From NCBI GenBank assembly GCA_913051715.1, contig CAJXCG010000002.1:1-56504 (forward strand): a DNA stretch of 56,504 nt, written 5' to 3'. A model generated the notes under the pieces. It had not been told where the DNA came from. It did not search any database and saw nothing but the letters and a program-made list of their open reading frames with translations. Source of the DNA: an uncultured Rhodobiaceae bacterium (GTDB lineage: Bacteria > Pseudomonadota > Alphaproteobacteria > RS24). Below, one piece after another: positions 49,343 to 53,130 of this stretch. Position numbers and translations under genes: made by a program. Position 1 is the first letter of the stretch. Each line of letters begins with the position of its first letter.

Positions 49343-50791
49343 CTATTTAATCTGTTTTTTCAAAAAATCGGGCATGTTGCCGTCAAACGCGTCCGACGAT
49401 TGAGCTTTGGCTTTGCGCGGCGGAGGCGCGGTTTTTTCAGCCTTTGCATTTTGAGATTTTTCGGCAGTCGGTGTTGCGTCAGGCTTCTTGTTGTTGGGCG
49501 TTTTACGCCTATTGCGACCAAGCAGCCCGCGCCGTCGGCCTGCATGATTATCGGTGCCATTGCCGCCGGTGGGTGAGGGGTCATCCGATTTGGCGTCCGT
49601 TTTACGCCGCCGCGGTTTGCCCTTTGCGGCGGGCTTATCGGTTTCCGCCGCATCCAGACCGGGCAATTCTTCGCGTGGGATTTCCAGCTTGATCAGCCCT
49701 TCAATGGTTTGCACATATTTATCGTCCTGGCGGGTCGCCAGCATATAGGCGGCCCCTGTGCGCCCGGCGCGGCCCGTGCGCCCAATGCGGTGCACATAGT
49801 CTTCAGCGTGCGACGGCACGTCAAAATTGAAAACATGGCTGACATTGGGAATATCCAAGCCGCGCGCGGCGACATCGCTGGCGATGAGATATTTTGCCGA
49901 ACCCGATTTGAACTCATCAAGCATTTTAAGGCGGATGTGTTGATCCATGTCGCCATGTAACGATACAGCTGAATATCCATGCCGCTGAAGGCTTTCCAGC
50001 AAGGTGCCGATATCGCGTTTGCGATTGCAGAAGATGATGCCATTGGTCACTTCTTCGCGGTCGAAAAGCGCGCGCAATGCCGCGCGCTTGCTCATCGGCG
50101 CAACCTCGATCAGCGTTTGCGACACGTTTTTATTGGTCGAAGAGGGCGGGGCCACTTCGATACGCTGCGGGGCTTGCAGGAATTGTTCGGACAAGCGCGT
50201 GATTTCCGGCGGCATGGTGGCAGAGAAAAACAATGTCTGGCGCGTGAAAGGCAGGAGCTTCACAATGCGTTCAATGTCGGGAATAAAGCCCATATCCAGC
50301 ATACGGTCGGCTTCGTCAATCACCAAAACTTCAACGCCGCGCAGCATCACCTTGCCGCGTTCGACATGGTCGAGCAAGCGGCCCGGCGTGGCAATCAGTA
50401 CATCGGCACCGCGCTCGATCGCACGTTCCTGGTCGCCAAACGACACACCGCCAATCAGCAGTGCTTTGGTCAGGCGGGTGTTTTGACCATAAAGATCAAA
50501 ATTTTCCGCAACCTGCGCCGCCAGTTCGCGCGTCGGCTCCAAAATCAGCGTGCGCGGCATGCGTGCCTTGGCGCGGCCCTTCATTAACCGATTGATCATC
50601 GGCAAGGTGAAGCCAGCCGTTTTGCCCGTGCCGGTCTGGGCGATGCCAAGCACATCGCGCCCCGCCATAACCGCTGGGATCGCTTGCGCCTGAATGGGCG
50701 TTGGGGTGGTGTAGCCTACCTGATTGATGGCGGCCATGATTTCCGGGGCCAGCCCCAGATCCTCGAAAGAGGTGATTGCTTCTGAACTCAT
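49343..50791 (-). CDS. DEAD-box RNA helicase, RhlE-like
   Basis: A 482 aa ATP-dependent RNA helicase. Q motif and motifs in order: FEDLGLAPEIM, PTPIQAQAIP, AQTGTGKT, PTRELAAQ, ATPGRLLDH, VIDEADRMLDMGF, FFSATMP, IIFCNRKRD, ASDVAARGLDIP and HRIGRTGRAG. The C-terminal ~110 residues are a basic, disordered tail rich in Lys, Arg, Pro and Ala, as in RhlE-type helicases of ribosome assembly and mRNA decay. Two ATGs are close together; I choose the second (50791), because the first (50797) directly touches the ACGGA ribosome site. The leader is unusual (see separate entry). Confidence 0.93.
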   Translation of the reverse strand: MSSEAITSFEDLGLAPEIMAAINQVGYTTPTPIQAQAIPAVMAGRDVLGIAQTGTGKTAGFTLPMINRLMKGRAKARMPRTLILEPTRELAAQVAENFDLYGQNTRLTKALLIGGVSFGDQERAIERGADVLIATPGRLLDHVERGKVMLRGVEVLVIDEADRMLDMGFIPDIERIVKLLPFTRQTLFFSATMPPEITRLSEQFLQAPQRIEVAPPSSTNKNVSQTLIEVAPMSKRAALRALFDREEVTNGIIFCNRKRDIGTLLESLQRHGYSAVSLHGDMDQHIRLKMLDEFKSGSAKYLIASDVAARGLDIPNVSHVFNFDVPSHAEDYVHRIGRTGRAGRTGAAYMLATRQDDKYVQTIEGLIKLEIPREELPGLDAAETDKPAAKGKPRRRKTDAKSDDPSPTGGNGTDNHAGRRRGLLGRNRRKTPNNKKPDATPTAEKSQNAKAEKTAPPPRKAKAQSSDAFDGNMPDFLKKQIK

Positions 50792-50826
50792 TTTCATTCC
50801 GTGTTGGTCGGGGCCGGTGCCCTGAC

Positions 50827-50881
50827 GAGGCTGCGCCTCCCAGTGAGGCTATATATCGAAGTTGTATATCGAGGCGATATA
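50827..50881. promoter_or_regulatory. TATATCG half-sites and hairpin in the helicase leader
   Basis: TATATCG occurs at 50852-50858 and 50865-50871 and, inverted as CGATATA, at 50875-50881; the last two form a perfect 7-bp dyad around AGG. Nearer the gene, GAGGC (50827-50831) and GCCTC (50835-50839) can form a hairpin. All lie 36-90 nt upstream of the helicase ATG. Confidence 0.5.
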
Positions 50882-50910
50882 GGGTCGAAAAATTTACTGC
50901 ATTCGACCAA

Positions 50911-50932
50911 AATTCAGGCCACCACGGCCTGA
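50911..50932 (-). terminator. Possible parE terminator
   Basis: TCAGGCC (50914-50920) and GGCCTGA (50926-50932) form a 7-bp stem with a 5-nt loop. On the minus strand it is followed by a short ATTTT. It lies about 80 nt after the parE stop. The T-tract is weak. Confidence 0.45.
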
Positions 50933-51012
50933 CCTGCTTCCAGATGAACGCAATCTAGGTTGTTTTGCCGACCGCGGCAAGGCGTTTGTCTGACGCAGCT
51001 CCGAGTTTTGGG

Positions 51013-53130
51013 TCAAATATCCAGCAAGGCGTCATCGGCAAAGGCCGCATTTTCCTGAATAAACCGAAAACGCAATTCCGGCTTATTGCCCATCAGGTTT
51101 TTTACCGCCTTGGAGGTTGCGGCATTTTCGTCTTCCGGAATTGTGACCTGCATCAACGTGCGTTGACCGGGGATCATCGTGGTTTCTTTCAACTGCGCGG
51201 GCAGCATTTCGCCAAGCCCTTTGAAACGGCTGACATCAACCTTGGCATTGGCGCGAAATTCGGATTTAAGCAGGGCTTCGCGATGCGCGTCGTCGCGCGC
51301 ATAGACCGTTTTTGCGCCTTGCGCCAGCCGATAGAGTGGCGGCACGGCGAGATAAAGATGCCGATTGCGGATAAGCTCCGGCATTTGCTCGAAGAAAAAT
51401 GTGATGAGCAGCGCGGCAATATGCGCGCCATCGACATCGGCATCGGTCATGATGATAACTTTTTCATAACGCAAGCGCGTGTCGTCATAATTGGCGCCCG
51501 TGCCGCAGCCCAAGGCTTGCACCAGATCGCTGATTTGTTGGCTTTGTTGCATTTTGGATGTCGTGGCATTGGCGACGTTCAAAATCTTGCCGCGCAAGGG
51601 AAGGATGGCTTGGGTTTTGCGATTGCGCGCTTGCTTTGCGCTGCCGCCCGCGCTGTCGCCCTCGACGATAAAAATTTCCGAGCCTTCCGCCGAGGCTTGC
51701 GCGCAGTCGGCCAGCTTGCCCGGCAGACGCAGTTTGCGTACGGCGGATTTTCGGTTTACTTCGCGCTCCTGGCGTCGGCGCACCCGTTCTTCGGCGCGGT
51801 CGATCACCCAGTTCAGCAATTTGTCGGCGTCTTGTGGGGCGGCAGTGAGATAATGCTCGAAGTGATCGCGCAAGGCCGTCTCCACAATGCGCGCGGCTTC
51901 GGGCGTGGCCAATTTGTCTTTGGTTTGGCCTTGAAATTCGGGTTCGCGGATGAAAACCGAAACCAGCGCGGCGGCTGTGCCCATCACGTCTTCGGCGGTA
52001 ATCAACGCGGCTTTTTTATTGTTCACCCGTTCGGCATAGGCTTTCAATCCCTTGGTAAGCGCAGATCTGAGGCCTTGTTCATGCGTGCCGCCCTCAGGCG
52101 TCGGCACAGTGTTGCAATAGCTTGCTGACATGCCATCGGCATTGCCAATCCCTGCGCCGACCCAGCTAACCGCCCATTCGACACTGCCGTGTCCGGCGTC
52201 TTTGGTGACCTTGCCCGCAAACGGCACGGGCGTCACGGTTGTGCGCCCGCCAATATGTTCCTCCAGATAATCTTTCAGACCATTGGGAAATTTCAACACG
52301 TCTTCGGCAGGCGTTTTGTCAGTGTCTTTGATTAATGCCGGGTCGCAGCGCCAGCGAATTTCAACCCCGCCGAACAAATAGGCTTTGGCTTTTGACATGG
52401 CATAGAGGCGGTCGGGGTCGAGCATGGTTTTGGTGCCGAAAATCTCGGCATCGGGCGTAAAAGTCACGCAAGTGCCGCGTCGATTTTTCGCCGCCCCCAG
52501 CGTTTTCAAACCACCCTTGGCAAGCCCGCGCTCGAAGCGCTGCTCAAACAATTTTTTGTCGCGCGCCACTTCCACAACAAGAAGCGATGACAGCGCATTG
52601 ACCACCGAAACCCCGACGCCGTGCAGACCACCGGACGTGTCATAGGCCTCACCGCCAAATTTACCACCCGCATGCAGGGTCGTCATGATGACTTCGAGCG
52701 CCGATTTATCCTTGAATTTGGGGTGCGGGTCGACGGGGATACCGCGGCCATTATCGCGCACAGAGACAGTATTATCGGCCATCACCTCGACCTCGATAAA
52801 GCTGGCATGTCCGGCGACCGCCTCATCCATGGAATTGTCGATCACCTCTGCAAACAAATGGTGCATGGCGCGCATATCCGTTCCGCCAATATACATGCCG
52901 GGGCGACGACGCACCGGCTCCAGCCCTTCCAGCACCTCAATGTCGCTGGCGGTATAGGTTTTTTCGCCTTTTGTTTTGCTGGTTGCTTTGGCGCTAGATT
53001 TGGAAGTGGATTTGGATGCGGGTTTTTTTGCCGCTTTCGGAGCCGCGCGCTTGGTCGTTTTACCTGCCGCGACGGGCGCTGTTTCTTCAAACAAATCGCC
53101 TGTTTTTGTCGCTGTTTTCCGTCGTGGCAT
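51013..53130 (-). CDS. parE: DNA topoisomerase IV subunit B
   Basis: A 705 aa GHKL ATPase subunit of the decatenating enzyme topo IV. A basic Lys/Ala/Ser-rich N-terminal extension (about 1-58), as in alphaproteobacterial ParE, precedes VLEGLEPVRRRPGMYIGG, the ATP site EVIDNSMDEAVAG and DNGRGIPV, and the SGGLHGVGVSVVNALS lid; the Toprim domain has EGDSAGGSAKQARNRKTQAI and IMTDADVDGAHI. These favour ParE over GyrB; no GyrB-type insertion is seen. The ATG at 53130 is divergent from the Old Yellow Enzyme gene. Confidence 0.94.
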   Translation of the reverse strand: MPRRKTATKTGDLFEETAPVAAGKTTKRAAPKAAKKPASKSTSKSSAKATSKTKGEKTYTASDIEVLEGLEPVRRRPGMYIGGTDMRAMHHLFAEVIDNSMDEAVAGHASFIEVEVMADNTVSVRDNGRGIPVDPHPKFKDKSALEVIMTTLHAGGKFGGEAYDTSGGLHGVGVSVVNALSSLLVVEVARDKKLFEQRFERGLAKGGLKTLGAAKNRRGTCVTFTPDAEIFGTKTMLDPDRLYAMSKAKAYLFGGVEIRWRCDPALIKDTDKTPAEDVLKFPNGLKDYLEEHIGGRTTVTPVPFAGKVTKDAGHGSVEWAVSWVGAGIGNADGMSASYCNTVPTPEGGTHEQGLRSALTKGLKAYAERVNNKKAALITAEDVMGTAAALVSVFIREPEFQGQTKDKLATPEAARIVETALRDHFEHYLTAAPQDADKLLNWVIDRAEERVRRRQEREVNRKSAVRKLRLPGKLADCAQASAEGSEIFIVEGDSAGGSAKQARNRKTQAILPLRGKILNVANATTSKMQQSQQISDLVQALGCGTGANYDDTRLRYEKVIIMTDADVDGAHIAALLITFFFEQMPELIRNRHLYLAVPPLYRLAQGAKTVYARDDAHREALLKSEFRANAKVDVSRFKGLGEMLPAQLKETTMIPGQRTLMQVTIPEDENAATSKAVKNLMGNKPELRFRFIQENAAFADDALLDI

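Follow-up and report, generated by a model that had tools for sequence, protein, structure and literature searches.

A conserved RNA leader, very probably regulatory, upstream of RhlE-type helicase genes in the PS1 clade, with a possible hairpin switch at the ribosome-binding region

The 56.5-kb window (the whole stretch of DNA that was analysed) contains a gap, 50798-51012, that is crowded with palindromes and lies behind a gyrB/parE-type gene and ahead of a DEAD-box helicase gene (Table 1), and the question it raises is which of these palindromes, if any, serve the helicase. A first-pass annotation had described the interval 50827-50932 as a dense array of palindromes in the structured leader of a DEAD-box helicase. 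Both parts of this description hold, as every element that it named is located where it had been placed, and the gap is the leader of an RhlE-like helicase gene on the minus strand that contains two hairpins, H1 and H3, conserved in the clade. Four perfect 7-bp inverted repeats with gaps of 3-20 nt occur in the interval, whereas 3000 dinucleotide shuffles contain 0.11 on average (P = 0.0013), and at least four such repeats were found in 3 of 1065 windows of the same size sampled from the 56.5 kb (50827-50932 included). Based on comparison with related genomes, we conclude that the gap is very probably a conserved, structured RNA leader that regulates the rhlE-type helicase gene in cis in the PS1 clade, the family to which the source genome belongs and which taxonomy places in the Alphaproteobacteria.

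Table 1. Coordinates of the genes, the predicted promoter and the leader elements in the window, in ascending order.
Feature	Position	Strand	Basis or remark
RhlE-like DEAD-box RNA helicase, 484 aa	49343..50797	-	PF00270 + PF00271
CACGGA ribosome-binding region	50798..50803	-	CACGG, complement of the H1 apex CCGUG
H3, hairpin with C(ACCG)G apex	50806..50827	-	4 uninterrupted bp in the source; clade form C(ANCG)G with a covarying stem
GCCTC-ACTGG-GAGGC hairpin	50835..50849	-	3 of 4 congeneric leaders (G000, G001, G002, not G003)
13-nt tandem array with TATATCG/CGATATA half-sites	50845..50881	.	Tandem Repeats Finder; 2.8 copies, 70% matches
H2, GGTCGAA/TTCGACC stem (50883-50889 / 50902-50908)	50883..50908	-	Inverted repeat and group folds
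H1, AGG + 7-bp hairpin TCAGGCC / GTGGT / GGCCTGA	50914..50935	-	Near-invariant sequence; the "terminator-like stem" (50914-50932)
Predicted promoter, TTGCCG-N17-TAGATT	50952..50980	-	Conservation in clade alignment A1
Type II topoisomerase subunit B (gyrB/parE family), upstream gene	51013..53130	-	PF00204, PF00986, PF01751, PF02518

The top NCBIfam models for the helicase are RhlE2, CshA and RhlE, yet all 25 of the models listed score under their cut-offs. Translation probably begins at the second ATG (50791), because in the relative L003 the first ATG (50789-50797 region, minus strand) is directly followed by TAA and the second is retained across the congeners. As the helicase is encoded on the minus strand, its RNA runs 5' to 3' from high to low coordinates, so that, of these elements, the stem at 50914-50932 is transcribed first and the TATATCG array falls in the middle of the leader. 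A simple consensus scan revealed no promoter in the helicase gap; the promoter listed in Table 1 is predicted from conservation. At the corresponding place, the other genera of the clade have -35 boxes of the TTTACA/T type and -10 boxes of the TATGTT/TATCTT type, and residues T27, A28 and T32 of the -10 box are invariant in all 22 leaders of alignment A1. The -10-like box ends 13-16 nt upstream of H1 in the 22 leaders that contain H1, and transcription is predicted to start at about 50943-50945. The leader is thus positioned between the predicted promoter and the helicase start codon on the same strand, and these conserved promoter-like boxes lie upstream of all of the dyads, which supports the first-pass placement of the dyads in a leader.

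Leaders were compared using two protein searches, the first of 61 genomes and the second of 104 genomes of the class, 66 of which matched at E 1e-130 or better. The comparison comprised 23 leaders of the source's family (L002-L024) and, as an outgroup, 65 leaders from the other families of that class. No usable leader was obtained from five of the 28 family genomes, as two gave no match (G004 and G020), two contain a distant paralogue only (G016 and G018), and in one the contig ends at the gene (G017). The 22 informative clade leaders represent five genera and are not independent of each other.

The H1 hairpin, which as RNA reads AGGUCAGGCC-GUG..-GGCCUGA and is located near the predicted 5' end, is present in 22 of the 23 clade leaders as compared to none of the 65 outgroup leaders, so that no class-wide motif was found in this set. 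The 22 leaders that keep it share the consensus AGGTC[A/G]GGCCGTG...GGCCTG[A/G], within which AGG and GUG are invariant (22/22), and the arms are nearly fixed around loops of 4, 5 or 7 nt (GUGG, GUGGU, GUGUUAU, GUGUAAU and GUGAUAU). In an alignment of 17 leaders, the invariant runs are H1 and CACGGAA. All 154 of the 154 cells in the H1 stem are standard pairs, with two changed on one side and none on both; because the hairpin is too conserved, no compensatory change occurs among the 22 leaders, and covariation gives its pairing no proof. The conservation of H1 and its restriction to a single copy support a conserved leader directly. When up to three mismatches from the 5-nt-loop form are allowed, exactly one copy is found in 17 of the 28 family genomes and two copies in none; a looser palindrome pattern detected unrelated extra sites in G001, G003 and G007, and a stricter one detected none. 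A search of 84,980 species genomes returned 117 matches to H1 in 116 stretches, 17 of which are followed on the same strand by a helicase whose first aligned residue lies 36-175 nt further on. One more, L065, is among the nine matches with less than 600 nt of downstream sequence; it ends 184 nt past H1, and the matching contig (G022:C46) carries the helicase. These 17 and L065 correspond to genomes that are already in the family set and therefore add no independent cases. The other 99 matches are spread over many phyla; in the downstream sequence available for them no helicase follows the motif, and they are taken as chance.

Identity with an Rfam family was rejected, as no match reached the gathering score (isrJ, 15.5 bits against a cut-off of 37, plus strand; sR14, 10.9 against a cut-off of 38), and a literature search of titles and abstracts, with the subscription literature mostly outside its reach, returned no report of this leader motif. 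The element would thus represent a new RNA leader, absent from Rfam, in a little-studied marine clade. Comparison of H1 with what is legible of one clade rRNA region, some of which is N, gave nothing beyond shuffles that would suggest rRNA mimicry, with a longest shared or complementary run of 8 nt as compared to shuffled means of 7.4 and maxima of 10 and 11. In the leaders of clade genus g4 (L008-L011), a second H1-like stem directly follows H1 and reuses the AGGTC and GGCCTGA modules, and the 3' arm of H1 is able to form 8 bp with it. Competing partners for this arm were found in 5 of the 22 leaders as compared to 4.8 expected, which is not over chance, and partners of 8 bp are limited to L008-L011.

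H1 could in principle act as DNA. Its perfect TCAGGCC palindrome, its near-invariant arms and its proximity to the predicted start site are what would be expected of an operator for a transcription factor bound just past the promoter. However, the half-sites are spaced by 4, 5 or 7 bp, which a dimer on DNA does not normally tolerate, the invariant AGG and GUG lie outside of the arms, and the 28 genomes contain no second copy within three mismatches, so that no regulon is seen; we therefore regard a DNA operator as quite improbable. A loop that changes length between fixed arms is more suitable for an RNA. The class of transcription-factor operators was rejected for H1, with its variable spacing and one site per genome, and for the TATATCG dyad, which is not enriched.

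The same stem had been called terminator-like, and in the source it does look the part: H1 is followed by ATTTT, and a scan lists it as terminator-like. However, the U run after the GC-rich stem is a weak one that is seen in the source genus only, as the other genera have GAGCGCG, GATGTCA, GAAAAGA and similar sequences at this place. Because there is no U run behind it in these genera, because a conserved stem sequence and a GUG loop are needless in terminators, and because its position is 3' of the conserved promoter-like boxes, the upstream gyrB/parE-type gene is very unlikely to use H1 as its intrinsic terminator. The invariance of AGG and GUG in 22 of 22 leaders might also reflect an upstream mini-ORF, in which AGG is the ribosome-binding site and, after 7 nt, translation starts at the GUG in the H1 loop (GUG GUG GCC UGA in leaders with a 5-nt loop). 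However, such a start would sit inside a stable hairpin, and the three loop lengths (4, 5 and 7 nt) put what follows into different frames, without a common peptide or stop position (by eye), which makes this reading highly improbable.

At the place that H2 occupies in the source, the group folds of several relatives contain stems of unrelated sequence. The third hairpin, H3, is recognizable by its loop. An ANCG-tetraloop hairpin with a stem of at least 5 bp is located between H1 and the ribosome-binding region in 15 of the 22 leaders, as compared to 0.19 expected from shuffles, and among 64 loop classes the one that ranks after ANCG scores 2. Hairpins of at least 3 bp are found in 18 of the 22 leaders (they are absent from L013, L014, L015 and L024), and in L020-L022 the hairpin closely follows H1. 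In 18 aligned examples, the source included, 95.2% of the cells are paired and six of the seven pairs are changed on both sides, with 44 doubly changed cells as compared to 11.8 in shuffles; moving the partner by one column lowers the pairing to 61% or 46%. For this analysis, the aligned segments were selected to give the longest stem around ANCG, a choice biased towards pairing, and the shuffle count for stems of at least 5 bp is the control for it. The covariation of H3 thus directly supports a structured RNA leader. The ANCG loop and the closing C-G pair are held while the stem varies. We conclude that the conserved parts of the leader are apparently H1 and, in most members, H3, and that the spacer, including the TATATCG array, appears free to vary.

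A leader with these properties may work without any switch, with H1 and H3 serving as sites for a protein (RhlE, RNase E or another part of the degradosome) that sets mRNA stability or translation. The H1 sequence itself is nearly invariant beyond what its pairing would require, and a constant ANCG loop with its closing C-G pair on a variable stem is typical of a recognised loop. In line with such sites, rhlE constructs of Caulobacter crescentus that lack the 5' UTR are less active, an effect that the authors attribute probably to mRNA stabilisation (PMC5472812). We give this reading an appreciable, though minority, share of the probability. Protein sites alone leave unexplained why CACGG is retained together with H1 and why it is complementary to the H1 apex, and 4 of the 22 leaders manage without an ANCG hairpin of at least 3 bp.

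The retention of CACGG is clade-specific. It is present in the last 45 nt of 22 of the 23 clade leaders as compared to 1 of the 65 outgroup leaders, the latter figure being approximate because some outgroup start codons lie elsewhere (the protein match starts internally); widening the stretch to 120 nt raises the outgroup count to 10 of the 65. Among 42 crude ORFs of the 56.5-kb window, CACGG lies upstream of two and CACGGA upstream of one. All 22 leaders that bear H1 contain both CCGUG and CACGG, and these two segments are complementary. Such a 5-nt match between the H1 and CACGG islands would arise by chance with a frequency of 4-6%, or 0.8-1.4% if it has to cover the GUG loop, both values being post hoc. 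CCGUG:CACGG is a concrete, mutable pairing that bears on the post-transcriptional control of alphaproteobacterial RhlE helicases and on their control in the cold. The sole clade leader without H1, L023 (genome G005), is without CACGG as well. As this leader is much shorter, with ~44 nt from the upstream stop codon to the helicase ATG (counted by eye), the double loss may be a single deletion, and its leader was apparently lost in this way. Outgroup leader L031 (G048) contains CACGGA just upstream of rhlE and no H1, and a local GUGUCCGU stretch could cover this CACGGA in a small hairpin (by eye). Control by CsrA via CACGGA was rejected, as PF02599 was detected in none of the 28 family genomes by a search that was positive for 3 of 14 control genomes.

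Pairing between H1 and the ribosome-binding region (the SD) can be extended beyond these five pairs in certain lineages. L013 and L014, which have a different loop, form eight unbroken pairs (shuffle fraction 0.006 each), and the extension is also strong in L003 (0.018) and L017 (0.004) and borderline in L016, L018 and L019 (0.05-0.07). In most leaders, the source included (0.76), extension past the core 5 bp is not above shuffles, and an extended helix was rejected as a clade-wide rule because the extensions are lineage-specific. Structure prediction gives both forms. RNAalifold, run with no hint on five groups that cover 21 of the 22 leaders (L024 is in none), predicts CCGUG:CACGG in two groups, A2 (the source genus) and A8 (seven members, in whose alignment MAFFT misplaces the 3' arm of H1 in two rows), and H1 in three of the five; in A6, the SD (ACGGA) pairs with another stretch. 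In forced folds, 14 of the 22 leaders favour H1 with a margin above 1 kcal/mol and one (L003) favours the long-range helix, and in the remaining 7 of the 22, the source included, the long-range form is within 1 kcal/mol of H1. Folded alone, the source leader is moderately beyond its shuffles in stability (z -1.90; 7 of 200 shuffles are equally or more stable); its minimum-energy fold contains H2 and a TATATCG-dyad hairpin and neither H1 nor H3, and a fold that contains H1 is less stable by no more than 0.7 kcal/mol. At 37, 20 and 10 C, constrained folds revealed no common trend, the balance between H1 and the long-range helix shifting variously upon cooling.

Because the CC of CCGUG sits in the stem of H1, the full H1 fold and the pairing with CACGG are mutually exclusive. 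From this we infer a switch, with the helicase as its operator and a response to cold, and the leader would probably serve translational autocontrol through H1/SD switching. The 5' end of the mRNA would probably be just upstream of H1. With H1 folded, the ribosome-binding site would be free and the helicase would be made, whereas once H1 is opened, for example by abundant RhlE, CCGUG would pair with CACGG, cover the ribosome-binding site and shut off translation. Opening by RhlE would thus create negative feedback on the helicase level; in the cold, where unwinding would fail, H1 would remain closed and more helicase would be produced. The specific switch between H1 and the SD, modelled on mutually exclusive pairings, is offered tentatively, and the joint proposition of a conserved cis-regulatory rhlE leader and translational autocontrol through H1 and the SD stands at close to an even chance. 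A bolder formulation, which we consider doubtful, is that the leader is an RNA gauge of helicase activity, in which a 5' hairpin unwound by its own gene's product would free the strand that covers the ribosome-binding site. If this were true, helicase output would be set by the amount of structured RNA left unwound, and cold induction would take place with no dedicated thermometer.

Leaders of the cspA cold-shock type are structured, precede genes with a cold-related product, and expose or hide a ribosome-binding site. The PS1 leader is likewise structured, precedes a gene with a cold-related product, and could expose or hide its ribosome-binding site; it differs in having no Rfam family at gathering score and in predicted folds that show no common temperature trend. 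The deaD gene of E. coli is reportedly autoregulated through its own 5' UTR. E. coli rne, which encodes an RNA-decay enzyme, is reported to have an autoregulated leader (PMC10989929). As in these two cases, the PS1 leader belongs to the gene of an RNA-processing enzyme for which control by its own 5' UTR is proposed, whereas its single-copy hairpin complementary to the ribosome-binding region, with no Rfam family, sets it apart from them. The rhlE gene of C. crescentus is also from an alphaproteobacterium, and the published account of it (PMC5472812) describes a long leader, a 186-nt 5' UTR with predicted stem-loops that matters for expression, and post-transcriptional cold induction. There, activity of a translational fusion that includes the rhlE 5' UTR rises at 10 C, an rhlE null strain shows higher activity of transcriptional fusions, the authors found no transcriptional cold induction, and they leave undecided whether RhlE acts on the stability or the translation of its own mRNA (PMC5472812). 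Although the species differ, these data would fit the feedback and cold response proposed for PS1. A difference is that H1 is present in 0 of the 65 non-clade alphaproteobacterial leaders, none of which is identified as that of C. crescentus.

The most striking elements of the interval, the TATATCG half-sites (TATATCG at 50852 and 50865, CGATATA at 50875), had been considered as a possible operator by the first-pass annotation, for which a lack of conservation of the dyads in close relatives would count against its reading. H1 is conserved; the half-sites are not, as neither TATATCG nor CGATATA occurs in any of the 22 other clade leaders (the last 260 nt before the helicase match were searched). 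In the congeneric alignment, the half-site block is opposed by a gap in two congeners and by unrelated sequence in G003. The three half-sites are also not independent, because all of them lie within one 13-nt tandem array. The genome search that had been suggested for TATATCG-N3-CGATATA revealed one exact copy, and no genome-wide enrichment of the dyad was detected, with 62 matches at up to three mismatches as compared to 53 for a reversed-pattern control. A conserved operator was rejected on these grounds. The narrower idea of an operator for a local regulator, for which speak the perfect dyad, its single occurrence in the genome and its RNA hairpin in the minimum-energy fold of the source leader, is extremely improbable in view of the same counts, the tandem array and two clade members with unrelated arrays of their own (15-nt in G003 and 11-nt in G008). 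Because these leaders carry their own arrays, repeat expansion is evidently tolerated, and the clade leader appears to be a hotspot for it. The TATATCG array is thus best described as a local duplication, seen in the source genome only and to all appearances dispensable for the clade; the half-sites that catch the eye are the part of the leader that the clade manages without. The unrelated arrays of the two other members extend over 2703-2783 in L005 (15 nt x 5.4) and 1399-1454 in L024 (11 nt x 4.9).
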